Part shown: in pieces, positions 3,558 through 31,195 of the stretch
How positions within the stretch are numbered: the first letter of the stretch is position 1
Layout: each line of letters begins with the position of its first letter
From: Candidatus Dormiibacterota bacterium
GTDB lineage: Bacteria; Vulcanimicrobiota; Vulcanimicrobiia; Vulcanimicrobiales; Vulcanimicrobiaceae
Assembly (NCBI GenBank): GCA_035532835.1
Contig: DATKQG010000086.1
Coordinates: 1 to 51,994 of the forward strand
Reading direction: 5' to 3'
Length of the DNA: 51,994 bases
The notes under the pieces: model-generated
Told to the model about the DNA's origin: nothing
Database searches by the model: none
Seen by the model: the letters and a program-made list of their open reading frames with translations, nothing else
Program-made: the position numbers and the translations under genes

Positions 3558-4297
3558 AACGTTTCGACGTAGGCAGCTACATCGCGAACGTCGGCGCGGG
3601 AAAGCGTTCCGGGAAAGAGTTTCGGCATCGGCGCGCCCGGATTCATAATCCACTGCTGAGCCTGCTGCAAATTCTTGCGCGTCTTTTCACCTTTTAATGA
3701 CGGGCCTTCCCCTCCGGCTCCTTGGACGCCGTGACATACGGCACAGTTCTGTGAAAACAGGGCGGCACCGCGTACGACATTGGGGGGCCCGGAGTTGCTC
3801 CCCGCATCGCTTGCAACGGCGGAGCGCGCTGGAACGTTTGCGGCTAACGCGCCGGTCGCCGCCGGTGCCACACCGAAGCCCCACGCCGAAGCTATCGCCA
3901 TGAAGAGCAAGCTTAAGCCGGTCACCCAGCCGATCCCCGCGGCGTACCGTTGCCCCGCGTAACCCGTGGCGAACGCGAACCCGATGATGCTCAGGTGCTC
4001 GAGAACGTGTCCCCCCGGATGCCGTTCGAACCATGCATATTCAGAAGGCCACATCAACATCATAACGGCAACCGGAGAGAGAATCGCGACGAGCAACCAC
4101 CCATAATGTGCGGCCCCGGTTTTGTGCGACGGCGCAGCGAACAGCAAGGCTGAAATCAGGGCGCCCGCAATCAGGGCAGCGTGAAGCAAGTGATGTTGTG
4201 CGGTCGGAAGATCGACGGAGCCGAGAAAGAGCGGCACGAGAGCTGCGACGATCGTCAATCCGAGAAGCCCGCCGGCAACCAGACGCATGTTTTTCAT
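3554..4297 (-). CDS. membrane-anchored cytochrome c
   Basis: A 247-residue protein with about five hydrophobic segments (roughly residues 6-26, 36-55, 66-84, 100-115, 125-145) followed by a linker and a C-terminal class I cytochrome c domain. The heme c attachment site CAVCH is at 185-189 and the likely distal ligand is Met224 in GAPMPKL. ATG 4297 is chosen because it overlaps the stop of subunit I by four bases (ATGA). The domain would face the periplasm and pass electrons to the CuA site of subunit II. The membrane part is larger than in simple anchored cytochromes and could be a quinol- or subunit III-like module; I cannot assign it. Confidence 0.82.
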   Translation of the reverse strand: MKNMRLVAGGLLGLTIVAALVPLFLGSVDLPTAQHHLLHAALIAGALISALLFAAPSHKTGAAHYGWLLVAILSPVAVMMLMWPSEYAWFERHPGGHVLEHLSIIGFAFATGYAGQRYAAGIGWVTGLSLLFMAIASAWGFGVAPAATGALAANVPARSAVASDAGSNSGPPNVVRGAALFSQNCAVCHGVQGAGGEGPSLKGEKTRKNLQQAQQWIMNPGAPMPKLFPGTLSRADVRDVAAYVETL

Positions 4298-5763
4298 GCC
4301 ACGGCTCCCGCTCTCTTCAGCCGCGCTAAACGCAACGCCTCGAAGACGGCCAGGAGAAATCCAATCAGCAGAATGACCGCGCCGATCGTAGCGATGCCTG
4401 CGAAATATGGGCCGGGCGCGGGCTCGCTGGCATACCGCCGCGGTACGCCGGCCGCCCCTGCCATGTAAAACGGCATTAGGAACAGTGCGCCCCCACCGAA
4501 CATTCCCAGACCTATCAGCCATCGCATGACGAGGTTGGACGCCGTGCCCGCACGCTGTTCCAAGCTCACGAACGCCCATCCCATGACGAAGAGTAGAACG
4601 CCTTCCAATAGATAGGTATGGAAGTGTCCTGGTACCCATAGGGTGTTGTGCAGATCGACGTTAATCGGAATGGTCGCATCCAAGACTGCAGCCGAGCCGC
4701 CGACCACCCAGCCGATCATGCCGGCGAAGAGGAACATCGACCCGAGGCTCCACTTCATCCCCGAACGGTGGACCAGCATCACGCCGCCATACACGGTTAC
4801 TACGACGACCGGAATCGCGGCCAGATACGACGAGATCTCGCCGATGTATTGCACGATTTGCACCTGCGCGAAATCCATATACAGGTGGTGGAAATACGCG
4901 ATGATCACGAACGTGAGCGTCCCCCACCACGCAACCGCCAGCGGGACCGATGTGTGGTATTCGCGCTTGGTGCACATCGGCAGCCCGACATACACTCCCG
5001 CGACGGCCATATACATCGTTAGGTTGGCAAACGTATGTCCGAATTGATAGATCAGGTTCTTCGCCCACAGCGGATTGATCGCTACGGTAGGGTCGATCCA
5101 ATGCACGATCATCGCAATGACGATTAGGAGCCCCGCGGTGCCTCCGATGAATCCGTCAATCGCGGTAATCGCCGCCGCAAACATCTCGGGCGGCGGGGGC
5201 TCTTGCCCGCTCGCAATGAACGCACGATTTCTAAAGACGTAATCGATAGCGAGCACGCCGCGGATTCCACCGAATCGCTCCAGCAGCGCCCCCAATATCT
5301 GGGCGCACCAGATCATAAAGCCGATCATAACCAGGCTGTTACCGATCAACCACGATCCGGTAGCCCAACTCGGCCAATACGTCCCGGTAAACGGCAACGG
5401 ATAGAGCATGGTCCAAAGCGCGCCATAGTGCCCCGGCACTACGCTAACGATCACGCAGACGACGCCTGCGAGAAAGAATCCGAACGCGAGATAGGCAACA
5501 CCCGCGTTCATCTTGGCATAGCGGCTGACCAGATACCATAAGATACCCAGGCCGGCGATCGCCATAGCGGTGATCATGCCGACGCCGTGAAGGCTCAAGA
5601 GAGAGTAGAACGTCCCCGGATCGATCGTTAGCCATCCGGCCTGGGAGGCACGCATAGCGATGCCCACGAGAACCATTAAGAGAAAAATCGCGAGCCCTGT
5701 CGCAATGTAGGTCCACATTACCCGTTTGCCGACGGGGTTATCTATCGCAACGATGCCGCTCAT
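4294..5763 (-). CDS. heme-copper oxidase/NO reductase superfamily subunit I
   Basis: A 489-residue, roughly 12-helix protein of the heme-copper superfamily. The six metal-ligand histidines are visible: His59 (SLHGVGM) and His382 for the low-spin heme, His380 (PGHFHTYL) for the active-site heme, and His243 (FGHTFAN), His292 and His293 (FHHLYMDFAQ) for CuB. In oxygen reductases of types A and B the residue four after the first CuB histidine is the cross-linked tyrosine; here it is Asn247. The HHLYMDF motif recalls B-type and archaeal Dox-like enzymes. Loss of that tyrosine is known in NO reductases, so NO reduction is a real alternative to O2 reduction. It is coupled to subunit II upstream and the cytochrome c gene downstream by ATGA overlaps. 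Confidence 0.88.
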   Translation of the reverse strand: MSGIVAIDNPVGKRVMWTYIATGLAIFLLMVLVGIAMRASQAGWLTIDPGTFYSLLSLHGVGMITAMAIAGLGILWYLVSRYAKMNAGVAYLAFGFFLAGVVCVIVSVVPGHYGALWTMLYPLPFTGTYWPSWATGSWLIGNSLVMIGFMIWCAQILGALLERFGGIRGVLAIDYVFRNRAFIASGQEPPPPEMFAAAITAIDGFIGGTAGLLIVIAMIVHWIDPTVAINPLWAKNLIYQFGHTFANLTMYMAVAGVYVGLPMCTKREYHTSVPLAVAWWGTLTFVIIAYFHHLYMDFAQVQIVQYIGEISSYLAAIPVVVVTVYGGVMLVHRSGMKWSLGSMFLFAGMIGWVVGGSAAVLDATIPINVDLHNTLWVPGHFHTYLLEGVLLFVMGWAFVSLEQRAGTASNLVMRWLIGLGMFGGGALFLMPFYMAGAAGVPRRYASEPAPGPYFAGIATIGAVILLIGFLLAVFEALRLARLKRAGAVA

Positions 5764-6263
5764 TTAACGTCGAAGCCTCCTTGCATGGCAGCGTGAGCTA
5801 TACCGCAATATTCCAAGCATCGCACCGTGTAGTGGCCTGGAATGGTGAACACCAGGGCGAGATGGTTCACGTAATCGGGCATCGCCTGTACCTGACTGAA
5901 AATGCGGCCATCCGGCGCGTAAATGCCGAATCCGTGGTTTACGTCTTTCGAGGTGACATCGAAAACGACCGGCGTATTCAACGGCACGGTCGAGGGCATC
6001 GCAAAACTATACTGCTGCGCGACGACCGGATAATGTCGAGCATTTTCGTCGGCACGCGCTTTCTGGTACGGAAACTGCGGAATGGTCACCGCGAACACGA
6101 CAACGGCAACGACAAGGGTAAACCAAAACCAGTAACGCCGGATAGCATATCCGGCGGCCGAGACTTCGGACTGCGAGATAGGCTCGGCCGAACGATAATT
6201 CGCGAGCCAGACCATGAGCACGATCGCTAGGCCGGCCACCCCGACGAATATTTCCAGAACCAT
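5760..6263 (-). CDS. heme-copper oxidase subunit II with CuA site
   Basis: A 167-residue subunit II with two transmembrane helices (about 1-21 and 44-63) and a periplasmic cupredoxin domain. All CuA ligands are present: His110 (DVNHGFGIY), then Cys149, Glu151, Cys153, His157 and Met160 in CLEYCGIAHAAM. Electrons from a soluble or anchored cytochrome c would enter here. I place the start at ATG 6263, five bases after GGAGAG; an in-frame TTG at 6275 would add four residues. It is the first gene of the operon, and its stop overlaps the subunit I start (ATGA). Confidence 0.92.
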   Translation of the reverse strand: MVLEIFVGVAGLAIVLMVWLANYRSAEPISQSEVSAAGYAIRRYWFWFTLVVAVVVFAVTIPQFPYQKARADENARHYPVVAQQYSFAMPSTVPLNTPVVFDVTSKDVNHGFGIYAPDGRIFSQVQAMPDYVNHLALVFTIPGHYTVRCLEYCGIAHAAMQGGFDVK

Positions 6264-6476
6264 ATTGCTCTCCAATGACCACCTCCACCGGCTCGTCTAT
6301 CCTGGCTTCGCTCCCGCGACGCTTCGCGCGATGCAGGAAGGATATTACAACTACATCTTCCTTTTCTTTAGTCGGCACCCGTTTCCAGATAGGCCTACCG
6401 TTGATACTGTAGCGAAGGCACTACCGGTCGTAAGCAACCGTGGTTCGCATTCGGCTCAGACAAGGAGCATCTCCTC

Positions 6477-7447: not shown

Positions 7448-8509
7448 TCATGGTACGTGACGAGCATAGGCGGCCGGTATATGCTCGCAACTAGCATCGC
7501 TACCGAAGGGGTTTCTCGAGGCCGCGTAAGCACGTGCGCGCGATCCGCCACATATCACGTTATATTCGCAAGCCCCACACTTCCCATCGAAAGCGTGGGG
7601 CTCACGAAGGCGTTGCATAATCGGATGGTCGCGATACACGTCGAGTAGATTTTGTTCCCTTACGTTTCCGACCGGTAGCGGAAGAAATCCGCTCGGCTGT
7701 ATGTCCCCGTGATGAGAAACGAAGACAAATCCTCGTCCGTCGCCGATTCCAGCGAAGCGCTCGCGGGACCCCAGCCGTACGGCACGCCCTGCCGCTCGGA
7801 TATCGGAAGAGTGTTGTATCGCGAATCGGCGGTAGTGCGGCGCTTCCGTCGCCTTTACATCGAAGGCTGCACGGGAAGCGATTGAATAAATATCGCCAAA
7901 GGCGGCTTCGGTCTGGTCCGCGGTCAAACACATGTCTTCTGCGGCACGCCCAACCGGCAACACGAAGAACAGGCTCCAGAGCGCTATTCCAAAGGGTCCG
8001 AGCACTTCTTCAAACTCGAGCAAGCGCAGCCGATTATGTTGTGCCACGGTGGTGTTGATCTGGACGCCAATGCCGCAGTCGAGCGCATAGCCTATGCCTT
8101 CGATCGTACGCTTAAAAGAGCCGACAACTCCACGAAACGCATCGTGCGCCTGGGCATCCGGCGCATCGAGGCTTAGCGAAATACGCCGGACCCCGGCCGT
8201 CGCAAGCCGCGTAACTGCCGCTCTTGTCAGCCGTCCCGTCGCACTCGGAGAAACGGACATCGGAATGTTTAGCGATGTGCCATACTCGACAATTTCATAA
8301 ATATCATCGCGCATTAACGGGTCGCCCCCGGTCAAGACGAACACGGGCCGATCGCATGCGTAAACGTCATCCACCAATTTGAAGGCTTCCATTGTCGTTA
8401 ACTCGAGGGGATCGCGCCGTGGGATCGCCTCAGCCCGGCAATGCCGGCAGGCTAGCGCGCACGCACGGGTCATCTCCCAGATGACAATACGAGGCGCGTG
8501 GTCGTACAT
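7448..8509 (-). CDS. radical SAM/SPASM protein (TIGR04053-like)
   Basis: A radical SAM enzyme of about 353 residues. The 4Fe-4S site CX3CX2C is Cys17, 21 and 24 (CALACRHC), followed by GGDPLMR. The C-terminal SPASM-like region has CGACEYNVICGG and a last Cys near 341. The layout follows the TIGR04053 group and is related to the heme-modifying NirJ and AhbD enzymes, but the Cys expected in their CGGC motif is Ser here (CGGS). Start ATG 8509 (MYDHAP) is chosen by comparison with the paralogue at 16917; an in-frame GTG at 8548 would add 13 residues. It lies just downstream of a DUF2249 gene, so the two are likely one operon. The substrate is unknown. Confidence 0.85.
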   Translation of the reverse strand: MYDHAPRIVIWEMTRACALACRHCRAEAIPRRDPLELTTMEAFKLVDDVYACDRPVFVLTGGDPLMRDDIYEIVEYGTSLNIPMSVSPSATGRLTRAAVTRLATAGVRRISLSLDAPDAQAHDAFRGVVGSFKRTIEGIGYALDCGIGVQINTTVAQHNRLRLLEFEEVLGPFGIALWSLFFVLPVGRAAEDMCLTADQTEAAFGDIYSIASRAAFDVKATEAPHYRRFAIQHSSDIRAAGRAVRLGSRERFAGIGDGRGFVFVSHHGDIQPSGFLPLPVGNVREQNLLDVYRDHPIMQRLREPHAFDGKCGACEYNVICGGSRARAYAASRNPFGSDASCEHIPAAYARHVP

Positions 8510-8551
8510 CGTATCTTCGATTGGTCGCGCGCCGATGCTTGGGAACACTTT

Positions 8552-12852: not shown

Positions 12853-14268
12853 TTAGGCGACCCCTAGATAGGCGCCTTCCAACGAATCGACGACCGCTAG
12901 GGCCGCCCGTTCCGCGCTCGCGACACAATCCGCTATGCCCGCACCGCGATACGCCGACCCCGCAAGCGCGATGCTGCCGATCGCCGTTACCGAACGTTCG
13001 ATCTCGCCGATCACGCCGGTATGACCGACCGAATACTCCGGCAACGCTTCGGGATGGCGATGAACGATCGACCAATTCGCAGGCCCCGCGATCCCGAGCA
13101 ATTCCCGGAATTCGTCACGCACCGCTGCGACGAGGTCGCGATCCTCGAGTTGCAGCACCTCGGATTGCATCGCGCCCCCCACGAATGCCCGCAGAATTGT
13201 CGTGCCTTCCGGCGCGCGATTGACGTACTTCTGGCTCGAGAACGTTGTCGCCATGACTCGCCGCCCCTCGATCTGCGGCACTACGAAACCGGTGCAGCGC
13301 GGCAACGGCGGAATATCGGCGGTGGTAAAGGCCATGGTGACCGTCGCAACCGAGTGATAGGCGATGGAGCGCAGCAGGTTTGCCGTTTGCGGTGCAAACG
13401 GTTCGAAAAGCGGCGCGGCCGCATGCGCCGGAAGCGCACAAATCACCGCATCGACATCGGCATTGGAACCATCCGCCAAGCCGACTTTCCATCCGTCGAT
13501 ACCTCGTCGCAATTCCGTGACCTCGCTCGACGTGCGCACCGTTCCAGCAAGCTCGCGCTCGAGCGATGCGACCAGCGATCCAAGCCCGCCACGCAGGCTC
13601 ACCATGCGGGGGGCCGCACTCGGTGGCTGGTTTCGCGCCATCGCCTGCATCGCGCGAACGAGGCTGCCGTGCTTGCGCTCCATTGCGAGGAATTGCGGCA
13701 GCGTGGCCTGCATGCTCAAGCGCGACGGATCGCCGGAGTAGATGCCGCCGATCAAAGGTTGTGCCAAGCGTTCGAGAATTTCACGTCCGAAACGCCTGGA
13801 AACGAACGAGCCCAAACTCTCGTCGCGCGCCGATGCCGCGGCCGGCACGAACGGTTCCAATGCCGCCCGCAGGATGCCGAACGGCGTGAAGAGGCGGCTG
13901 CCGACGAGCGCCGCAAGCGACATCGGCGTGAAGAGCCGGAAATCGTCCGGTATCGGCACGAGCCGTCCCGCTCGCACGACGCGCGCCCCGCGGTACTCCG
14001 TCAGCATCGGCCGCACCTCGTCCGCAAGGCCGAGCCGACCGATGAGATCTAACGCCGCGGGCTTCTCGGTTATCAACGAATCCGGCCCCATCTCCAGCAC
14101 GCAGCCCTCGTCGTACCGCGTCGCGATGCAGCCGCCGACTCGCGACGCACGCTCGAACACGGTGATCTCGACGTCGCGTCCGCGCTCCCGCGCCAATTCT
14201 CGGCAACGATAGGCTGCCGCGAGGCCGCTGATGCCGCCGCCGATCACCGCTATGCGCCGCGCCGCCAT
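12853..14268 (-). CDS. hemY: protoporphyrinogen/coproporphyrinogen oxidase (HemY type)
   Basis: A 471-residue FAD enzyme. The N-terminal dinucleotide fold IAVIGGGISGLAAAY and ERASRVGG, the central LEMGPDSLI, LIGGIYSGDP and RGGLGSLVASL, and the C-terminal GSAYRGAGIADCVASAE are typical of oxygen-dependent HemY/CgoX. It oxidises the porphyrinogen made by HemE-type steps to the porphyrin for metal insertion. The sequence alone does not show whether it uses protoporphyrinogen or coproporphyrinogen. Its start ATG 14268 overlaps the hemH stop (TGATG). Confidence 0.92.
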   Translation of the reverse strand: MAARRIAVIGGGISGLAAAYRCRELARERGRDVEITVFERASRVGGCIATRYDEGCVLEMGPDSLITEKPAALDLIGRLGLADEVRPMLTEYRGARVVRAGRLVPIPDDFRLFTPMSLAALVGSRLFTPFGILRAALEPFVPAAASARDESLGSFVSRRFGREILERLAQPLIGGIYSGDPSRLSMQATLPQFLAMERKHGSLVRAMQAMARNQPPSAAPRMVSLRGGLGSLVASLERELAGTVRTSSEVTELRRGIDGWKVGLADGSNADVDAVICALPAHAAAPLFEPFAPQTANLLRSIAYHSVATVTMAFTTADIPPLPRCTGFVVPQIEGRRVMATTFSSQKYVNRAPEGTTILRAFVGGAMQSEVLQLEDRDLVAAVRDEFRELLGIAGPANWSIVHRHPEALPEYSVGHTGVIGEIERSVTAIGSIALAGSAYRGAGIADCVASAERAALAVVDSLEGAYLGVA

Positions 14269-15227
14269 CAAGCTCCCTCGCTACCGGGCGCGCGTTGTGC
14301 GCGCTCCAGCGTCAACTCGGCAAGCATGCGAGTAAACCCCGGATGGTCGTTCACGGCCGTCGCTCGCTGCATCCGTACGCCGACGCTTTGCGCGATCGTT
14401 TTTACATCGATATCGAGATCGTATAGCACCTCGACGTGATCGCAAAGGAATCCGATCGGCGCGACGATCGCCGCGCCGATTCCACGCTCGGGTAATCCGC
14501 GCATGACGTCGCGAACGTCCGGGCCGAGCCACGGCTCGCGCGGCGAACCGCTGCGGCTTTGGTACGCGATTTCCCATCGTGCGATCCCCGTCTCCGCGGC
14601 GATCTCCTCGCCCGTTTTTCGCAATTGCCGCACGTAGAGGTCGGCACCCGGCGTCGCCACCGGAATGCTATGCGCGGTGAACACGATCGCCGCATCGTGC
14701 GCGTCCTCTCCGCCCAAATGCGCGCGGGCATCATCGAGGCGATCGGCATGGGCGCCGATAAACGAAGGATGGTCAAAAAAAGGATCGATGTAGTCGACGA
14801 TCGGCGCACCGCCGATGCTTTCGAGAGCGTCTTGCGCGCTCCGAACGTAGGCATCCCAACTCGCGGCGCTCTGATGCGGAGCCAACGGAATCGCGCAGAT
14901 CCGTCGCGCATTTTCGCGCGCGAGCGACTGCATCACGTCCGAAATGAACGGTTCGGCGTGGCGGTACGCCACCACAACGGGCGTATCCACGCCGTATTCG
15001 CGTAGCGCGCGCTGTACGCCGACGGCCTGCCGTCGCGTGAACTCGTTATACGGCGACACGCCGCCGATATCGAAATAATGCCGCACGACCTCTTCGTAGC
15101 GGGAAGGCGGAACCGGCCGTCCCGCCAACACGCGGTCGAGAAATGGGCGAATTTCGGCGGTATTCGTCGGGCCGCCGAACCCTAATAGGACGACCGCATC
15201 GTACCGGGTGGTAGCGACTGCGCTCAT
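14268..15227 (-). CDS. hemH: ferrochelatase
   Basis: A 319-residue ferrochelatase, inserting iron into the porphyrin ring. The conserved VVLLGFGGP near the start, YRHAEPFI, the active-site histidine in FTAHSIP and GFLCDHVEVLYDLD (Glu that guides the metal) are present. The order hemE-hemH-hemY with 4-base overlaps is the familiar bacterial operon. As with hemY, the substrate may be protoporphyrin or coproporphyrin; no hemQ is in the window to decide. Confidence 0.95.
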   Translation of the reverse strand: MSAVATTRYDAVVLLGFGGPTNTAEIRPFLDRVLAGRPVPPSRYEEVVRHYFDIGGVSPYNEFTRRQAVGVQRALREYGVDTPVVVAYRHAEPFISDVMQSLARENARRICAIPLAPHQSAASWDAYVRSAQDALESIGGAPIVDYIDPFFDHPSFIGAHADRLDDARAHLGGEDAHDAAIVFTAHSIPVATPGADLYVRQLRKTGEEIAAETGIARWEIAYQSRSGSPREPWLGPDVRDVMRGLPERGIGAAIVAPIGFLCDHVEVLYDLDIDVKTIAQSVGVRMQRATAVNDHPGFTRMLAELTLERAQRAPGSEGA

Positions 15228-16339
15228 CTTCGACCGTAGGCGTGCACGGCGTCGACCAGAGCGAGCACGTTATCGACCGGCGTTCCAGGCAACACGCCGT
15301 GGCCGAGGTTAAAGATATGTCCGGGCTGCCCGTCCATTCGGGCGAGAATCTCGCGCGCGCCCTTGCGTATCTCGGCAGGCTCGGCGAAGAGTTTTACCGG
15401 GTCGAAGTTTCCCTGGATGCCGACGTTCTCGCCCAGCCGATCGCGAGCCTCATCCAAATCGACGCGCCAATCCACGCCGACGACGTCCGCTCCCGTCATC
15501 CGGATGACGTCCAGCAAACCGGCAGTCATCGTTCCGAAGTAGATGACCGGTACGCTCGATCGCACCGATGCGATCACCTGCTGCGTGTACGGCAAGACGT
15601 AGTCGACGTAATCTCCGGGCGAAAGACAGCCGACCCAACTATCGAAGAGCTGCACCGCATCGGCACCGGCATCGATCTGCATGCGCAGGTACGCCGACGT
15701 GAGCTCCGTCATGTATGCCATCAAACCGTGCCAAACGCGCGGTTCGCGGTACATCAGCTTTTTGGTTTCGGTAAAATTGCGTGACGAACCGCCCTCAATC
15801 GCATACGAAGCAACGGTAAAAGGCGCCCCTGCGAATCCGATAACAGGTACGCTTCCCCGCAGTTCCGCCTGCGTGAGGGCGATCGTCTCACCTACGAACG
15901 CTAAAGTCTCCGCGACGCTCACGTTCGGAAGCCGTTCGATATCCGCGATCCCGCGAATCGGACGTTCTATGTGCGGACCCTCGCCTTTGGCAAATTCCAG
16001 GCCCAGTCCCATCGGCAAGAGCGGCAGCAAAATATCGGCAAAGATAATGGCCGCGTCTACGCCGAGCTTGCGGACGGTCCCCACCGTCACTTCCGCGGCG
16101 GTTTGCGAGTCGCGGCAGAGATCGAGAAAGGAAAGCCGCTCGCGTACGCGCCGATACTCCGGTAGGTAGCGGCCCGCTTGCCGCATGAGCCATACCGGAG
16201 TAAACGGCGTCGATTCTCCGCGGCACGCGCGCAAAAAAGCATGCTCGGCGGCCGGGGCCTCAACATCCGTAAAATGGCTCGCGCAAGCCCACTCCGGTAG
16301 ATCGAGGGTCGGGCTTATGGCGTCATAATGAGCGATCAT
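15224..16339 (-). CDS. hemE: uroporphyrinogen decarboxylase
   Basis: A 371-residue enzyme that converts uroporphyrinogen III to coproporphyrinogen III. The signature PVWLMRQAGRYLPEYR is at about residues 48-63, with GFAGAPFTVASYAIEGG, LFDSWVGCLSP and FNLGHGVLPGTP further on. About 30 residues precede the usual N-terminus, so the true start may lie later than ATG 16339, but no better-supported codon is obvious. It is the first gene of the heme operon. Confidence 0.95.
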   Translation of the reverse strand: MIAHYDAISPTLDLPEWACASHFTDVEAPAAEHAFLRACRGESTPFTPVWLMRQAGRYLPEYRRVRERLSFLDLCRDSQTAAEVTVGTVRKLGVDAAIIFADILLPLLPMGLGLEFAKGEGPHIERPIRGIADIERLPNVSVAETLAFVGETIALTQAELRGSVPVIGFAGAPFTVASYAIEGGSSRNFTETKKLMYREPRVWHGLMAYMTELTSAYLRMQIDAGADAVQLFDSWVGCLSPGDYVDYVLPYTQQVIASVRSSVPVIYFGTMTAGLLDVIRMTGADVVGVDWRVDLDEARDRLGENVGIQGNFDPVKLFAEPAEIRKGAREILARMDGQPGHIFNLGHGVLPGTPVDNVLALVDAVHAYGRR

Positions 16340-16916: not shown

Positions 16917-17996
16917 CTATGCCAGTGCCGATGCAGCTTGCGGCCGATACGAGCAGCTCGGATCGCTTGCGAAAGGATTGCCGGAGGTCGTATACGCTCT
17001 GGCGCGAGAGCCGCCGCAGATGCGACCGAACTCGCAGAGCCCGCACTTGCCTTCGAACGTTTCCGGCCGCCTCAGCCTGCGCATGACCGGATGATCGCGG
17101 TAGATATCCAGTAGGGAATGCTGTAGAACGTTACCGACGGCCTCCGAGAGAAACCCGCTGGGCTGAATGTCGCCGTGATGAGAGACGAAGACGAATCCTC
17201 GGCCGTCGCCGATGCCCGGAAAACGCAACGGCGGGTGTTTTGGCTCGGTCTCACGATCGCGCGGCGGCACGATCTCGTGCTGCAGCGCGTATCGGCGATA
17301 GTGCGGCGCTTCGGTCGTTTTTACCGCGAACGGCGCGCTCGCGGCAACGGCATGAATATCGGCAAAGGCTGCATCGACGTCGGCCGGATCGAGACACATA
17401 TCCAGCCCGGCGCGCCCTACCGGCAGTACGAAGAATAGGCTCCACAAGGCGATGTCGAACGGCGCCAGGACGGCTTCAAATTCGCGCAGACGCGAGCGAT
17501 TCTGCTTCGTTACGGTCGAATTGACCTGAACGCTGATGCCGTAATCGCGCGCGTTCGCAAGAGCTTCCATCGTTCGCCGATACGAACCCTGGACGCCGCG
17601 AAACGCATCGTGCGCCTGCGCATCCGGAGCATCGAGGCTTAGGGATATTCGCCGCGTACCGGCACTTGCAAGGTGACGCATCGTCTCGCGCGTAAGCCGT
17701 CCGCTCGCCGCTGGAGCGACGGACATCGAGAGATTGAGTCCGCTTCCGTACTCGATGATCTTATAAATATCGTCACGCATGAGCGGGTCGCCCCCGGTCA
17801 AAACGAACAGCGGATGATCGCACGCCGCGACATCTTCCACGAGTCGGAACGCCTGCGCCGTCGTCAATTCGTTCGGATCGCGACGTGGAATGGCTTCCGC
17901 CCGACAGTGCCGGCATGAGAGTGGGCACGCGCGAGTCATCTCCCAAATCACGATGCGCGGAGCACGATCGTACATGGGGTCGGTCATCGCCTTCAT
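16917..17996 (-). CDS. radical SAM/SPASM protein (second TIGR04053-like copy)
   Basis: A 359-residue paralogue of the protein at 7448-8509, near-identical in the N-terminal core (RAPRIVIWEMTRAC, CRHCRAEAIPRRDP). The radical SAM site is CPLSCRHC and the SPASM region CGLCEFGRICGGSRARAY, again with Ser where NirJ/AhbD have Cys. The start at 17996 is favoured by AAAGGTGA five bases upstream; MYDRAP at 17975 is the paralogue-like alternative. It lies downstream of an FMN-type flavoprotein gene in the same operon, a plausible electron source or partner. The substrate is unknown. Confidence 0.86.
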   Translation of the reverse strand: MKAMTDPMYDRAPRIVIWEMTRACPLSCRHCRAEAIPRRDPNELTTAQAFRLVEDVAACDHPLFVLTGGDPLMRDDIYKIIEYGSGLNLSMSVAPAASGRLTRETMRHLASAGTRRISLSLDAPDAQAHDAFRGVQGSYRRTMEALANARDYGISVQVNSTVTKQNRSRLREFEAVLAPFDIALWSLFFVLPVGRAGLDMCLDPADVDAAFADIHAVAASAPFAVKTTEAPHYRRYALQHEIVPPRDRETEPKHPPLRFPGIGDGRGFVFVSHHGDIQPSGFLSEAVGNVLQHSLLDIYRDHPVMRRLRRPETFEGKCGLCEFGRICGGSRARAYTTSGNPFASDPSCSYRPQAASALA

Positions 17997-18478: not shown

Positions 18479-18512
18479 AAAACCCCCGATACCGCTGGGT
18501 GCCGGGGGTTTT
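18479..18512 (-). terminator. Rho-independent terminator of the Cyc2-like gene
   Basis: An inverted repeat AAAACCCCCG / CGGGGGTTTT with a 14-base loop, ending in a T run on the minus strand. It starts 8 bases after the stop codon of the Cyc2-like gene (18520-19710) and insulates it from the operon at 16917-18438. The symmetric A/T tails would allow it to act on both strands. Confidence 0.85.
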
Positions 18513-18519
18513 ATTGGAC

Positions 18520-19710
18520 CTAGTTACCGATCGGCGTGCTCCACCATAGGGTGTAACGCCAGTCGGGTCCTCCGTTCGGCGAAGCCGAGTGAGCTCCCAA
18601 CCCCGCTTCGATGTACCCGTGCAGATATTGCAGCCCGGGGACGTTGAAGGCAAAGTCGACGTTGCCGTAATGGAGCACATTTCCAAGCCCGTCATCGGTG
18701 TACTCGTCGCGTAAACCGATCACGGCGTTCCCTTTGAACACGGGCTCGTATATTTCGGCGCTCATCGCGCGGCTCCGCGCCGCCGGCAACTGATTGCCGA
18801 TGAGGTCGAGGCCCGGATTCGTGTCGTTCGCTACCTGGTACATCGCCAGGACACCGGGAACTCCGTGCGATTGCGGATCGCGCTGCAAGTAGCCGGCGAG
18901 CGATGTATATCGATCGACGTCTCCGGTGGATACGATGTAACTCCCCGAGCTACCGTACGCGCCGAATTCCAGCGGTTGGTCGGGCCTAGCATCGGCAAGT
19001 TTCCATTGGAACGTCTTGTCGGTGCCTGGGACCGTGTCGAAGTCGGCACTCCCCAGCCAGCCGTTCCCGCTCAAAAGCCACCCGGCTTCCGCATTGATGG
19101 ACTTATGGGTGTAGCCCAATTTCGCGCCCCAACGATTCCCGTCGAGTTGATAGGCATGCTCGCCAACCGTGATTTCGGGCGTGGCGATGGGCGATAGATC
19201 GAACCACTGGCTAAACGGCGATGGGCCCGGTGCTTCGATTTTGCCTAGAAACAAATGGCCGTCGCGGTGAAACAAGTTGTTGTATGTGATCCACGCCGTA
19301 TCCAGCGTTCCACCCGTCTGATCGCTTGAGATCAACCACTGTTGAACGTGATACGTCCAATCCGGCGCCGCGTAACCCGCGGCGTGGATGGCGAGGTTTC
19401 CGACGGAATTCGTGTAGGTCGGCTGGTTGGCGTTCACGCCTCCGGCACTATCGCCGTTGATTTGCTCGCCGATCCAAATCGGATCTACGGTTTTTAGGAC
19501 GTCGCGATTGAGCGACGCGTATCCCGTCCGTTGTACGTAGCGCCCGTAGGCATTGAGCGCTGGGACTAAAGTGTGACAGACGCTACATTGTACGCCGTAG
19601 GCCTTGGCGAAGATGGGCATGGCGCTCGCATTACGAGCACCCATCCCCGCCACGAGCAGCAGCGTACCCGCAATCGAAGCGACTGCAAGCCGTAGCGGTC
19701 GCCCAATCAT
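18520..19710 (-). CDS. Cyc2-like fused monoheme cytochrome-porin
   Basis: A 396-residue exported protein. Residues 1-30 are a signal peptide (cleavage after ASA). The mature N-terminus has one heme c site, CSVCH at 42-46, followed by PALNAYGRYVQRTGY, which matches the pattern of the Cyc2 family (C-x-x-C-H, then P-x-L-x-x-F/Y-G-R-x-x-x-x-x-G-Y). The rest, about 330 residues, is rich in alternating polar/aromatic strands and fits a beta barrel. Cyc2 proteins carry electrons, for example from Fe(II), across the outer membrane. The gene overlaps a CuA cupredoxin gene upstream (ATGA). Other porin-type electron-transfer proteins share this head, so iron oxidation is not proven. Confidence 0.72.
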   Translation of the reverse strand: MIGRPLRLAVASIAGTLLLVAGMGARNASAMPIFAKAYGVQCSVCHTLVPALNAYGRYVQRTGYASLNRDVLKTVDPIWIGEQINGDSAGGVNANQPTYTNSVGNLAIHAAGYAAPDWTYHVQQWLISSDQTGGTLDTAWITYNNLFHRDGHLFLGKIEAPGPSPFSQWFDLSPIATPEITVGEHAYQLDGNRWGAKLGYTHKSINAEAGWLLSGNGWLGSADFDTVPGTDKTFQWKLADARPDQPLEFGAYGSSGSYIVSTGDVDRYTSLAGYLQRDPQSHGVPGVLAMYQVANDTNPGLDLIGNQLPAARSRAMSAEIYEPVFKGNAVIGLRDEYTDDGLGNVLHYGNVDFAFNVPGLQYLHGYIEAGLGAHSASPNGGPDWRYTLWWSTPIGN

Positions 19711-20069
19711 TGAACGACCTTGACGACCAACACCATGTCAGCGTGGCCGGCTCCGCAAAAGACAGCGCAATGAACCTGGTAAGTGCCGAGTTTCTTAGGC
19801 GTAAACGTGACCGTCACGAATTTTCCCGGCATGATGGTGGTGCTGGGAATCCCAAGCTCGTCCGACTGAATCCCGTGCACTCCTCCGCTAGAGGTCAGGC
19901 GCAGGGTCGTCGGCTCGTTTAGGTGGGCCGTAACGGTTCCGGGTGTAAACTTCCAGTTAGAAGCTACGATGTCGATACTCGGGTGGGCTGCCACCGGAGC
20001 TGCGGCGGATACCCCTAGTCCCAGTGCGAATACCAGAGATGCTAAGGCAACGCCGATCGATTTAAACAT
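19707..20069 (-). CDS. secreted CuA-type cupredoxin
   Basis: A 120-residue protein with a signal peptide (residues 1-28, ending VAA|HP) and one cupredoxin domain. It has the CuA arrangement: His65 (GGVHGIQ), Cys101, Cys105, His109 and Met112 in CAVFCGAGHADM. The Glu that normally lies between the cysteines is Val103. It would be a periplasmic two-copper electron carrier. ATG 20069 is chosen because GGAGA lies nine bases upstream; ATG 20078 is too close to it. It is co-transcribed with the Cyc2-like gene, suggesting that it takes electrons from that protein. Confidence 0.82.
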   Translation of the reverse strand: MFKSIGVALASLVFALGLGVSAAAPVAAHPSIDIVASNWKFTPGTVTAHLNEPTTLRLTSSGGVHGIQSDELGIPSTTIMPGKFVTVTFTPKKLGTYQVHCAVFCGAGHADMVLVVKVVQ

Positions 20070-20174: not shown

Positions 20175-20648
20175 TCAGAGCGCATCGTGACGAAGCATAT
20201 CGATTCCGGCCCGAATATCATCGAGCAGAGCCTGCGCGGTGTGCACCGCGATCGAACGCCCCACGGCTGCGTCAAAAGCCGCACCAACGACCGTACCCAA
20301 AGGTGGTTCGTAGGTGCCATCTATTTCCAAGAACGAGCGTTCGGGATCTTCTTCACTCCAGATCGTTAGCCGGCCGGAGAATTCGGGGAACGGGCCGCCG
20401 TCCTCGGGCTTCCAATGGATTCCGAACTCATCGTTCAGGTTCTGTTCGTCCCGCCGCTTGCAAATACGCGCGACGACCGCGCGCGATACGTCTAATTTCC
20501 CGGGAATGCCGAAGTCGCCGAGTGGAAGCCGCAGACGCAGTAGTGTCTTTCCGCTCGCATCGCGGTGCGCCGCAAAATAACGCGGCAGAAGGCGCTCCGC
20601 TTCCGCCTCGGAGCAATCGAGCGGAACGACCGCGCGCGCCCGGTCCAC
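20175..20648 (-). CDS. member B of a four-copy START-like paralogous family
   Basis: A 157-residue soluble protein without signal or membrane segment. It carries the shared family signature: FGIHWKPEDGGPFPEFSGRL, then a strand ending in GTYEPPLGTVVGAAFDAAVGR and the helix TAQALLDDI. A GTG start at 20648 follows the stop of the 35-residue frame at 20650-20757 by one base, so it is the last gene of the operon of the stress protein and SQR-like flavoprotein. Function unknown; a hydrophobic-ligand-binding START-type fold is a guess. Confidence 0.76.
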   Translation of the reverse strand: MDRARAVVPLDCSEAEAERLLPRYFAAHRDASGKTLLRLRLPLGDFGIPGKLDVSRAVVARICKRRDEQNLNDEFGIHWKPEDGGPFPEFSGRLTIWSEEDPERSFLEIDGTYEPPLGTVVGAAFDAAVGRSIAVHTAQALLDDIRAGIDMLRHDAL

Positions 20649-20760: not shown

Positions 20761-22200
20761 TTACTCCGGAATCATGCGCCAGCCGGGTTTGGCCTGGAGC
20801 TTCCACATGAACGTTTCGTGCAGGAGGCGCTTCGTCCAGGCCCCCGCCAATCCCACATCGAGATCGCAGAGGTTGAGATCGCGCCCGTACTGTGGGTACC
20901 GCTCGAAGTCGCGCGCCACCGGAACCATGACGATCGATGCCGCCGATCCGTTCCACAGCGAATGCCCCATCGAGGCGATGCACGCCGCCGGCATCTCGCT
21001 CATCCGCGCGTGGTGCGTGGGCTCGCGGCCTTCTATTTGATCTGCGACATTGTAGGCAGCCGTGCGACCCATGATTCCGGCCGCCATGCCCGTGCGGGGA
21101 GCCGTCGCAACGATTGCGGTACCGGCATTGGATTTTTTCCCCTTTGAGAGCGGGTGCGGCGGAGCGAACGCGATACCGACGGCGTAGACGTTCGGGTAGA
21201 GTGGTGAGCGATACGTTGCCGGCCAATCCGCGGCACGATATTCGTCGTAGGTCTTCGACGCGTAATCGGCGTCGACGCGCATAAAACCGCTGGGCAGCGT
21301 CATCGCCGCCGTAATATCGGCCCCCAGTTTATCGATATATTTCAATGGTATGCCGCGAAATTGCGGTATGAGCATCGCGAAATCGAAGTCCAGCGTGGTC
21401 GGGTCCACGCCGATCTGATCGTACGTCAGGCGTCCGGATTCGACATTAGTCACACCGGCGGCCATCAGCGTTCGCACGTGCGATTCGTCGAAGAGTCCTC
21501 GCACCAACGCGGCGCCCGTTACGACCGCGCCGTGCTTGCGCGCCTCGACGCCGTCGACGCCGAAATCGCCGGGTTCCGGCTCGTTGCTCAGCCAGACTAA
21601 GTCGGCCTTGTCCCGCAGGCCGCGATTGCGCAAATCGGCGTCGACGTTCATTAGATACTCGAACGCGGCGCCCTCGCACGTCGCCGCCGGATGTCCGACG
21701 CCGATCACCAAACGTTGGCGCTGGCCTTTACGCATCCGCGCGATGCTCTCGATGTATGCGGCCCGAGCGGCCACCGCGTGATCGACGGAACAGACGCTCT
21801 GGGTGTGGCCCGCGGCCGGCCCCAGGCCCGGCGTTCCCTCGAAATTCAAATACGGGCCCGTGGCGTTGATGAGATAATCGTATGCAATCCTGCGCGTCTG
21901 GCCGTCCGCCGACTGCACCTCAACCCACCGGTCGTCCGGCGCGATCGTTTGCGCGCGCGCGTTCACGTATTCGAAGCCCAGCTTCTCGTACACGGGCGCG
22001 AGCTCGAATTGCACGGCTTCCTCCGACATCGTCCCCGTGCCGACCCAAATTAAGCTTGGGAACCACGTAAAGCGATTGCCCGGAGCAACCACCGTGACCT
22101 CGGCTTTTCCGCTCACCAAGTGGGAGAGATGGAGCGCCGCGGTATGGCCGGCGAATCCCGCCCCGAGAATGAGGATGCGCGGCAACGTTGAGGCGCTCAT
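20761..22200 (-). CDS. sulfide:quinone oxidoreductase-like FAD protein
   Basis: A 479-residue flavoprotein of the two-dinucleotide-binding-domain family. The FAD site ILILGAGFAGHTAAL is at the N-terminus; LINATGPY, the cysteine in HPAATCEGAAFEYLMN and the C-terminal segment SKGKKSNAGTAIVATAPR are visible. The cysteine placement and the amphipathic C-terminus fit sulfide:quinone oxidoreductases, which pass electrons from sulfide to quinone at the membrane. A type II NADH dehydrogenase-like role cannot be excluded. It overlaps the universal stress gene upstream (ATGA) and is followed by a 35-residue frame and member B. Confidence 0.75.
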   Translation of the reverse strand: MSASTLPRILILGAGFAGHTAALHLSHLVSGKAEVTVVAPGNRFTWFPSLIWVGTGTMSEEAVQFELAPVYEKLGFEYVNARAQTIAPDDRWVEVQSADGQTRRIAYDYLINATGPYLNFEGTPGLGPAAGHTQSVCSVDHAVAARAAYIESIARMRKGQRQRLVIGVGHPAATCEGAAFEYLMNVDADLRNRGLRDKADLVWLSNEPEPGDFGVDGVEARKHGAVVTGAALVRGLFDESHVRTLMAAGVTNVESGRLTYDQIGVDPTTLDFDFAMLIPQFRGIPLKYIDKLGADITAAMTLPSGFMRVDADYASKTYDEYRAADWPATYRSPLYPNVYAVGIAFAPPHPLSKGKKSNAGTAIVATAPRTGMAAGIMGRTAAYNVADQIEGREPTHHARMSEMPAACIASMGHSLWNGSAASIVMVPVARDFERYPQYGRDLNLCDLDVGLAGAWTKRLLHETFMWKLQAKPGWRMIPE

Positions 22201-27707: not shown

Positions 27708-30095
27708 ATGCAGACTCACGCCGATACGCCGACGACACCCTTGAGCCAAGACGAACTCCAACGCGTCGATGCTTATTGGCGCGCGGCGAATTATCTCAGC
27801 ATCGGGCAGATCTATCTTCTCGACAATCCTCTGTTGCGGGAGCCTTTACGGATCGAACACATCAAGAAGCGGCTCCTGGGCCATTGGGGCACTTCGCCGG
27901 GACTCAACTTAGTCTACGCCCATATGAACCGGCTCATTGGGCGCAACGATCTCAACGCGATCTTCATCGCCGGACCGGGGCACGGCGGGCCCGCCGTGGT
28001 TGCCAACGCGTATCTCGAAGGCACCTACACCGAGCGTTACGCCCACATTTCGCAAGACGAATCGGGCATGCAGCGGCTCTTCAAGCAGTTCTCCTTTCCC
28101 GGCGGCATTCCGAGCCACGCGTCGCCGGATGCGCCCGGATCGATCCACGAAGGTGGCGAGCTTGGCTACAGTCTGCTTCATGCGTACGGCGCAGCTTTCG
28201 ACAATCCGGACTTATTCGTATGCTGCGTCATCGGCGACGGCGAAGCGGAGACGGGCGCCCTTGCGACCAGTTGGCACGGCAACAAATTCCTCAACCCCGT
28301 GCACGATGGCGCGGTCTTACCGATCCTGCATCTCAACGGCTATAAACTTGCCGGCCCAACGGTCTTGGCGCGTATCGATGAGGACGAATTGCTCTCGCTC
28401 CTGCGCGGGTACGGATACGAACCGCAGCTCGTCGCCGGCGACGACCCGGCGCTCGTGCATCAAGCCTTGGCAGCGGCGCTCGACGCGGCCGTGCTGCGGA
28501 TACGCGGCATTCAATCCGACGCACGCGCGCACGGCTTCTCGGCAAGGCCGCGATGGCCCGCGATCGTACTGCGGACTCCTAAGGGCTGGACGGGCCCGAA
28601 ATACGTTGACGGCTTGCAGATCGAAGGGACGTTCCGCGCGCATCAGATTCCCATCGGGGACTTCGAACACAAGCCCGAGCATCTCGCGCAGTTCGAAGCA
28701 TGGATGCGTTCCTATCGACCCCAAGAGTTATTCGACCAGGACGGGCGGTTGCGTCCCGATATCGCGCGCTTGGCGCCGTCGGCGGATCGCCGCATGAGTG
28801 CCAACCCGCACGCCAACGGCGGGGAATTGCTCGTCCCGCTCGCTCTTCCCGACTTTCGGAACTATGCGGTGACCGTTGAAAAACCCGGCAATAGCGTGGC
28901 TGAGTCCACGCGCGTCGCCGGACTGTTCCTGCGCGATACGATCCGCGCGAACCCGACGACCTTCCGCATATTTGCTCCCGACGAGACCGCCTCGAATCGT
29001 CTCGATGCGCTCTTTGAGATTACCGATCGTTGTTCGACGGCGCACATCATTCCCATCGACGACCACGTCGGCCCGGACGGGCGGGTCATGGAGATCCTGA
29101 GCGAGCACAGCGTACAAGGCTGGCTCGAAGGGTATCTCCTCACTGGGAGGCACGGGCTCTTGACGTCGTACGAAGCGTTCGTGCACGTCGTCGACTCGAT
29201 GTTCAACCAGCATGCAAAGTGGATCGACGCCGCCAATGCCATCGCGTGGCGAGCGCCGATCGCATCGTTCAACTACTTGCTGACATCGCACGTATGGCGC
29301 CAGGATCACAACGGCTTTACGCATCAAGATCCCGGCTTTCTCGATGTAGTGATGAACAAGTCGGCGAGCGTCGTGCGCGTCTATCTGCCGCCCGATGCCA
29401 ACACCCTGCTCTCCGTGACGGATCACTGCTTGCGCAGCAGCAACTACATCAACGTCGTCGTCGCGGGCAAACAGCCCGAGCTTCAGTGGCTGGGAATGGA
29501 GGCGGCCGTCGCCCACTGCACGGAAGGGGTGGGCATCTGGACGTGGGCCAGCAACGACGAGGGCGTGGAGCCCGACGTCGTTATGGCATGCGCGGGAGAC
29601 GTCCCCACGCTCGAAACGCTTGCGGCGGTGGATTTCTTGCGCACGCACGTTCCCGAGATGCGCATCCGCGTCGTCAACGTCGTCGATCTCATGCGCCTTC
29701 AGCCGCAAAGCGCGCATCCGCACGGCATGACCGACCGCGACTTCGATTCGATTTTCACCACCGACAAGCCGGTGATCTTTGCCTTTCACGGGTATCCATG
29801 GCTGGTTCATCGGCTCACCTATCGCCGCACCAATCACGACAATCTGCACGTACACGGTTATAAGGAGAAAGGCACGACGACCACGCCGTTCGACATGACG
29901 GTCCTCAACGAACTCGATCGCTTTCACTTGGCGGGCGATGCCATCGACCGCGTCGCGCGCCTGCAAGAACGCAGCGCGCATGCGAAACAGTTGATTCGCG
30001 ACCGGCTCGTAGAGCATCGCAACTATATCACGACGTTCGGAGACGATCTGCCGGAGGTGAAAAACTGGACGTGGTCCCGGGCCGAAGCACCTTGA
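27708..30095 (+). CDS. xfp: xylulose-5-phosphate/fructose-6-phosphate phosphoketolase
   Basis: A 795-residue thiamine-diphosphate enzyme that splits xylulose 5-phosphate or fructose 6-phosphate into acetyl phosphate plus glyceraldehyde or erythrose phosphate. Near the start GPGHGGPA, then [21 protein letters not shown], the cofactor region [17 protein letters not shown] and [17 protein letters not shown] are typical, as is the full length. It starts 15 bases after the ATPase stop and overlaps the acetate kinase frame. With that kinase it makes ATP from acetyl phosphate. Confidence 0.96.
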
Positions 30096-31195
30096 ACGTC
30101 TTGACGTTGAACTCGGGTTCGTCGTCGCTGAAATACCGAGTTTACGCGACCGACGCCACCGCTACACGGCGCGCCACAAGCTGGAACGACCGCCGGACCC
30201 CGGATCTCGGCGCCGCGTCCGCAGCAGCGAGCGCCGCCGCCGCGGACGCCATCGCCGGCGACGTGCCCATCGACGCGGTGGGATATCGCGTCGTATTCGG
30301 CGGGCCCGACGACCGCCCGGCTCTGGTAACCGCGGCGCTCATCGAGCGCCTGACACAACTCGCCTCGTACGATCCGCTGCATATGCCCGGTGCCCTGGCC
30401 GGCATTATAGCCGCGCGCAACGCGTTTCCATCGATCCCGCACGTCGTCTGCTTCGATACGATGTTCTTTCGCGACATGCCGCAGATCGCGCAGCAAATCG
30501 CGATACCCACGGACGAAGACCCTTATCTGCGACGCTACGGCTTTCACGGACTTTCGTACGAATATCTGCGCACCGCAATCGGCGCCGCACTTCCCGGCCG
30601 CAGCATCTTCGCACACCTCGGAAGCGGGGTAAGTCTGGCGGCGCTGCGCGACGGAAAACCGGTCGAAACCACCATGGGTTTCAGCCCGATGGGCGGCGTC
30701 ATCATGGCAACTCGCCCGGGTGATATCGACCCGGGGCTGCTCCTCTACCTCATTGAAAAACGCGGGCTCGACATCGCTTCGCTGCGATCCATGCTTGAGG
30801 AACGCAGCGGCATCGCGGCGATCTCCGGCGGCGAAGGAAACGTGCAAACGCTGATCGAGCGACGCGGAGACGAACGCGCGACGCTCGCCGTCGAGAGCTT
30901 TGTGCGAAGCGTCGCCAAGGCGGTCGGGGGCCTCGCCACGGTATTACAGGGGCTCGATTTGCTCGTCTTTACCGGAGGCATCGGCGAGCACCTAGCACCG
31001 CTCCGAGCGGCTATAGCTCGACCGTTGGGTCACCTCGGCGTCGAGATCGACGACGCGCTGAACGCGGCGGGATCGGGCACGATCTCCGCGGCCTCTTCGA
31101 AAGTTAGCGTGCGCGTGGTCCCCACGGATGAGAATGCCGTGATCGCTCGCTTGTCATACGACCTTCTCTGCGGGTCGGTCGACGGCCGGCACTAG
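30071..31195 (+). CDS. ackA: acetate kinase
   Basis: A 374-residue acetate kinase, slightly shorter than the usual 400. [10 protein letters not shown] at the N-terminus, [41 protein letters not shown] and FTGGIGEH are recognised. GTG 30071 is preferred because GGAGGT lies 12 bases upstream within the phosphoketolase gene; TTG 30092 would overlap the stop of that gene directly. It converts acetyl phosphate to acetate with ATP formation. It ends by a 4-base overlap with the convergent DUF6496 gene. Confidence 0.94.

Follow-up and report, generated by a model that had tools for sequence, protein, structure and literature searches.

In the rus operon the genes run in the order Cyc2, Cyc1, AcoP, CoxBACD and rusticyanin. 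The dinuclear copper centre CuA, with a midpoint potential around +0.25 V, has otherwise been described in subunit II of oxidases and in nitrous-oxide reductase. The rus system belongs to Acidithiobacillus ferrooxidans, for which the components have been described (PMC10654088), and the copper site of its AcoP is mononuclear, formed by H85, C159, H166 and M171 (PMC4059628). Cyc2 itself, as known from Mariprofundus and Acidithiobacillus, combines a signal peptide and a single N-terminal CXXCH with a 16-strand barrel resembling the phosphate porins, which have been named as its structural homologues, and the motif AXPXFAR[Q/K][T/Y], located ahead of CXXCH, has been called unique to Cyc2 (Keffer et al. 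2021, PMC8406198). Cyc572 of Leptospirillum is highly diverged from Cyc2 and has Cyc579 as its partner cytochrome (PMC10654088). Acid mine drainage has yielded an Eremiobacterota MAG for which Cyc2-like genes were reported (PMC8357290).

Here we describe, from a soil-dwelling member of Eremiobacterota, a cytochrome-porin gene that overlaps the gene of a secreted CuA-type cupredoxin in the window, by which we mean the whole analysed stretch of 51,994 nucleotides. The arrangement is like the rus operon of A. ferrooxidans in that a cytochrome-porin, a copper protein and a terminal oxidase are encoded together; however, the AcoP and rusticyanin sites are mononuclear, whereas the cupredoxin in the window carries the two-cysteine dinuclear CuA motif. 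Likewise, the partner of Cyc2 is a soluble cytochrome, in contrast with the predicted CuA partner of the window porin.

The cytochrome-porin and its likeness to Cyc2

The porin gene and its parts are as follows.

18520..19710, minus strand: monohaem cytochrome-porin gene, 396 aa, with a putative signal peptide
19573..19587, minus strand: CSVCH haem c attachment motif, residues 42-46; C42, C45 and H46 are invariant in aligned relatives
19519..19563, minus strand: PALNAYGRYVQRTGY, a Cyc2-like segment 3' of the haem motif, residues 50-64, aligned with Cyc2 proteins
18532..19479, minus strand: predicted 16-strand beta barrel, residues 78-393; AlphaFold2 mean pLDDT 82.4, pTM 0.81; OprP/OprO Z 23.9-23.7
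18479..18512, minus strand: terminator-like hairpin 3' of the porin gene, -22.7 kcal/mol, z -4.02

In the predicted model (AlphaFold2, 43 sequences), a short helical haem head precedes exactly 16 barrel strands, and a structure search of solved proteins placed the model closest to the phosphate porins OprP/OprO, with general porins close behind. The initial annotation had proposed a monohaem CXXCH head with a presumed barrel and had named structure prediction as a check; the CSVCH motif, the 16 predicted strands with the scores listed above and the OprP/OprO matches all agree with it. The call of a signal peptide is based on the sequence together with a helix predicted at the N-terminus. No Pfam or NCBIfam family could be assigned to the porin, and neither a single-sequence nor a profile query of the PDB gave a sequence match. 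The dN/dS values of the porin and the cupredoxin against the closest relative were 0.036 and 0.085, respectively, so the two are constrained genes under purifying selection. Directly past the porin stop, the hairpin is followed by a U run and was equalled in stability by 0/200 shuffles; it looks like a transcript end. Met31 of the porin (AMP; 19618-19620, minus strand) is invariant in 43 aligned porins, which is partly built in because relatives were found partly by the AMP pattern, and is Leu/Val/Ile in Cyc2 proteins and Ile/Val in paralogues. This residue may be the mature N-terminus or an axial haem ligand.

To judge membership of Cyc2, we used the criteria of Keffer et al. 2021. The window porin shares with Cyc2 (Mariprofundus, Acidithiobacillus; PMC8406198) the signal peptide, the single N-terminal CXXCH and the 16-strand phosphate-porin-like barrel, and at 396 aa it lies above the minimum of at least 365 aa. 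PXL occurs a few residues past CXXCH in both (CSVCHTLVPAL in the window porin) and GRxxxxxGY is shared, so the PxLxxYGRxxxxxGY motif noted initially is indeed common to the two. However, where Cyc2 has AXPXFAR[Q/K][T/Y], the window porin reads AMPIFAKAY and its relatives mostly AMPxFAQAY. The motif itself varies among six plasmid-borne Cyc2-type proteins that we aligned, from Caballeronia, Paraburkholderia, Ideonella, Methylocystis, Acidithiobacillus and Polymorphobacter: three have FARQT, one FNRQT and two FAAQT. Considering that the latter two lack the Arg, the motif is not absolute. A c-type cytochrome gene lies next to or near the Cyc2-type gene in 6/6 of these loci, and no CuA gene is annotated in the examined part of any of the six. 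As such, the view of the initial annotation, by which known Cyc2 systems have soluble cytochromes or copper proteins of the mononuclear kind as partners, held in these loci and for AcoP.

Sequence similarity to Cyc2 is concentrated in the haem head. With two of the plasmid-borne Cyc2-type proteins, the window porin aligned over the head only, with 29-49% identity and a pairwise E of about 1e-9, and at database scale the head similarity had an E of 4e-3. A home-made Cyc2 profile matched in the host genome at 4.1e-8 over 53 positions, and a profile-profile comparison with Cyc2 that spanned 264 columns gave a probability of 96.3% and an E of 1.6e-9, the clear identity being confined to the head. 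Set against a threshold of E 1e-5, these values fall on both sides, the one at database scale being the weakest. Judged by these alignments, the haem head is homologous to that of Cyc2 and the similarity of the barrel is weak. We therefore did not keep the Cyc2 label given initially, considering AMPIFAKAY at the motif site and the restriction of pairwise similarity to the head; Cyc2 in the strict sense was rejected for want of AXPXFAR[Q/K][T/Y]. On sequence grounds, the window porin belongs to a related cytochrome-porin family that is Cyc2-like in plan and outside strict Cyc2. Cyc572, compared by its description, likewise fuses an N-terminal haem to a 16-strand barrel. Screens for Cyc2 that require PXFAR[Q/K][T/Y] would miss porins of the window type. 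Separately, the Cyc2-type gene on plasmid pACMV3 of Acidiphilium multivorum (L136, 3890-5258) is annotated as two hypothetical ORFs, and an intact relative of it lies on an A. ferrooxidans plasmid (L134).

The CuA cupredoxin and its coupling to the porin

19707..20069, minus strand: secreted CuA-type cupredoxin gene, 120 aa; PF13473 1.7e-10, PF00116 1.1e-5
19875..19877, minus strand: CuA ligand His65
19734..19769, minus strand: CuA ligand loop C101-x3-C105-x3-H109-x2-M112
19707..19710, minus strand: ATGA overlap of cupredoxin stop and porin start, CAATGATT (ATG/TGA, 4 nt)

The cupredoxin was taken to begin with MFKSIG at 20069, a conserved start; the longest open reading frame extends to 20135. 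It scored above the cut-off for both Cupredoxin_1 and COX2 in Pfam, the latter also being matched by 27/32 relatives. When the PDB was searched with the single sequence, the nearest solved relative was the CuA domain of the Thermus ba3 oxidase (4.4e-9), and with a profile 6pty (3.7e-15) and 2cua (1.6e-13) came first, followed by another cupredoxin, 4hcf (2.2e-9), and then by more oxidase subunits II. The CuA domain of ba3 subunit II (PDB 2cua, 6pty), thus the best sequence match, has all CuA ligands in common with the window protein, and the identity with the CuA domain of CoxB from a related locus was 23%. His65 and the four ligands of the loop are invariant in 32/32 relatives, partly through selection as these were collected with the CuA motif; the window protein itself was not so chosen. 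The initial annotation had placed a CuA site at H65, C101, C105, H109 and M112, and its numbering proved exact, with homology to solved CuA domains in addition. The protein is of CuA type by sequence, with a predicted two-copper site. While subunit II of the ba3 oxidase is membrane-anchored, the window cupredoxin is soluble and secreted without an anchor, and in some relatives the CuA domain is tethered to a predicted outer-membrane barrel. At residue 29 (19983-19985, minus strand), cleavage after AxA would leave His first (AHPSID), as in most relatives, and this N-terminal His of the mature protein could serve as a ligand of a further metal ion.

The translational coupling proposed initially is supported by the ATGA overlap, which is conserved in relatives, where the pair in some cases becomes a gene fusion. 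An identical 4-nt overlap was found in 30/40 adjacent pairs on named Eremiobacterota contigs. Among 99 genomes of the family of the host, porin homologues were present in 94 and cupredoxin matches in 96. A CuA gene lay at most 150 nt upstream on the same strand for 44/70 porin homologues (E < 1e-50), from 17 genera; it was downstream only or fused for three, elsewhere within 3 kb for four, and no CuA match was present within 3 kb for 19. The upstream arrangement was also seen in 8/19 more distant porin homologues. By chance, an adjacency of about 0.1% is expected, given about three cupredoxin genes per ~2500 genes; kinship of the genomes lowers the effective number of observations in the adjacency count, and 17 genera remain. 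A profile scan of named genomes yielded 59 relatives, mostly labelled Eremiobacterota, Eremiobacteria, Eremiobacter or WPS-2, and the others, mostly MAGs, carry no phylum label. Tandem pairs also occur, in the order CuA-porin-CuA-porin in L070, and L069 has a second CuA gene 3' of the porin.

In L084, L087 and L123, on named contigs, and in L030, a single protein comprises the haem head, the barrel, an Ala/Pro-rich linker and a CuA domain in which the five ligands are kept. In the AlphaFold2 model of the L084 protein, the barrel has 16 strands and is joined through a disordered linker (383-414) to a cupredoxin for which pLDDT is mostly >=90. As the top 50 Foldseek matches of this fused model were all barrels, the evidence for a cupredoxin fold in the fusion comes from sequence homology and from the local confidence of the model. 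Alignment A4 had the unfused porins out of register at their final barrel strand, and the model of the fused barrel may be weaker at its end for this reason. L071 and L095 are not counted as fusions, since the apparent fusion or deep overlap there was due to the choice of an upstream start, and L124 was left out because of its short porin reading frame. A free second CuA-like gene lies 3' of the fusion gene in L084, L087 and L123, and the order in L030 is a CuA gene, the porin-CuA fusion, another CuA gene and another porin.

CuA is not the only domain that is found at the end of the barrel. In L027 the barrel is followed at its C-terminus by a class I cytochrome c domain, as it is in two host paralogues; these paralogues, L002 (G000 contig 72) and L003 (contig 48), are 507 and 598 aa long and consist of the haem head, the barrel and the C-terminal class I cytochrome c. 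Trihaem cytochrome genes are present in most loci without an adjacent CuA gene, the cytochrome family occurring in 16/57 named loci. In the fusions and REPLACEMENTS, one C-terminal position is thus occupied by CuA or by cytochrome c, and this interchange is the best argument for CuA as the electron partner of the porin. Furthermore, because the strand count is even, the two ends of the barrel come out on the same side, and the haem head and CuA would thus share a compartment.

Proposed electron uptake and its alternatives

Clustering of neighbouring ORFs in 57 named loci found a haem-copper oxidase subunit I in 15, whereas three copies per genome would predict roughly one such locus; 13-14 loci had a two-component pair and 11 had universal stress proteins. 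From their sequences, some of the 15 oxidase matches may be NO-reductase-like, and the oxidase of L068 scores like the window protein encoded at 4294-5763. In three loci (L105, L106, L107), CoxB, CoxA, CuA and porin genes stand in a row on one strand. The host assembly consists of 120 contigs that total 2.89 Mb. RuBisCO is encoded in it, along with four CuA-domain matches and three haem-copper oxidase subunit I genes.

The pair is probably a two-gene electron-uptake module of Eremiobacterota, in which electrons would pass from an outer-membrane haem barrel to CuA and on to a haem-copper oxidase. By analogy with Cyc2, the barrel would be in the outer membrane with its covalent haem head plugging the periplasmic mouth. 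A small reduced donor would enter the pore from outside and give one electron to the haem, which would pass it to the co-produced periplasmic CuA protein, free in the host genome and barrel-tethered in some relatives. CuA would then deliver the electron to a haem-copper oxidase, alone or via a further CuA or c-type carrier. We infer the outer-membrane location, the periplasm-facing haem plug, the transfer from haem to CuA and the inward flow to an oxidase; the predicted models carry neither haem nor copper. The likeliest donor would be Fe(II), by analogy with Cyc2 and considering the Cyc2-like genes of the acid mine drainage Eremiobacterota MAG (PMC8357290). Several points stand against the uptake module, however. 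The sequence fixes neither the donor nor the direction of flow, the diagnostic motif of Cyc2 is absent, and 19/70 homologues lack CuA within 3 kb. In addition, CuA potentials would be a poor match for Fe(II) oxidation at very low pH, although in soil that is mildly acidic or near neutral they could be adequate.

A narrower version of the same proposal, in which the porin is a genuine Fe(II) oxidase, a Cyc2 homologue that takes electrons from Fe2+ for autotrophic growth, seems somewhat less likely than its negation. The homology of the head with Cyc2 is in line with it, as is a 16-strand barrel nearest to OprP/OprO, phosphate porins having been named for Cyc2 as well (PMC8406198); RuBisCO and oxidases in the host genome and the Cyc2-like genes of the Eremiobacterota MAG from acid mine drainage (PMC8357290) would also fit. 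However, AXPXFAR[Q/K][T/Y] is replaced, the barrel sequence is barely related to that of Cyc2, and none of the sequence features examined selects Fe(II).

Flow in the opposite direction was also considered, with the module passing respiratory electrons from the periplasm to an acceptor outside. Monohaem porins are reversible in principle, which would permit such export, but the neighbours are haem-copper oxidases, an electron sink, and a single haem in a narrow barrel is not a multihaem wire; we regard export as improbable. We give equally little credence to a role in copper handling, with the cupredoxin as an assembly factor for copper or the CuA site, the barrel as a porin for metal or copper compounds and the haem as a sensor or structural element. 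Some small periplasmic cupredoxins do handle copper, and adjacent oxidase genes would require CuA loading; nevertheless, both the C-terminal fusion of CuA and its exchange for cytochrome c, as a domain or as a separate gene, speak for electron transfer and against copper delivery. Finally, an ordinary Cyc2 that a CoxB-like gene adjoins by chance is hardly credible and was rejected. CuA domains are indeed common in the genomes of the family, with several per genome, but the adjacency is conserved in 17 genera with an identical 4-nt overlap and with fusions.

Cytochrome-porins, CuA domains and mononuclear copper proteins near Cyc2 in A. ferrooxidans are already known. As far as could be found, the coupling or fusion of a cytochrome-porin with a CuA carrier is new: in the open-access literature searched, which gives weak evidence of absence, no paper joined CuA or a cupredoxin with the Cyc2-like porins of Eremiobacterota. 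If the uptake module is real, a dedicated CuA carrier together with an outer-membrane haem porin would be a new way of moving electrons across the periplasm, and possible electron-uptake lithotrophy would extend to a common, hardly cultivated soil phylum. The chances seem evenly balanced that much of Eremiobacterota has its own CuA-based outer-membrane conduit, consisting of a cytochrome-porin beyond present Cyc2 definitions and a free or tethered oxidase-derived CuA carrier, with haem-copper oxidases fed from extracellular donors. The natural barrel-CuA fusions offer a ready construct for measuring electron transfer from haem to CuA.

Other genes in the window

Two genes upstream of the pair lie on the same strand.

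20175..20648, minus strand: small SRPBCC-like gene; a similar-looking family, judged by eye, occurs in 21 related loci; candidate operon member
20761..22200, minus strand: FAD/NAD-linked oxidoreductase, PF07992 5.6e-10; possibly in the same operon

The product of 20761..22200 has weak similarity to type III sulfide:quinone reductase (NF049943 3.6e-14, far under the cut-off). Elsewhere in the window (4294-6275, minus strand), a gene for a CuA subunit II immediately precedes one for a haem-copper oxidase subunit I (PF00115). In this oxidase, GHTFANLTMY replaces the usual GHPxVY, without the cross-linked Tyr, and from its sequence it may be a CuA-type NO reductase. The surrounding genes encode a cytochrome c, a regulator of the CRP family and two multi-pass membrane proteins.

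At 7448-8548 and 16917-17996 (minus strand) lie two radical SAM genes that are related to each other and akin to haem b synthase AhbD and NirJ; the second matches TIGR04053 above the cut-off, and between the two is a cluster at 12853-16339 of HemE, ferrochelatase and protoporphyrinogen oxidase-like genes. By their ORF translations, consecutive genes at 27708-31195 on the plus strand are phosphoketolase-like and acetate kinase-like, and a P-type cation ATPase comes before them.
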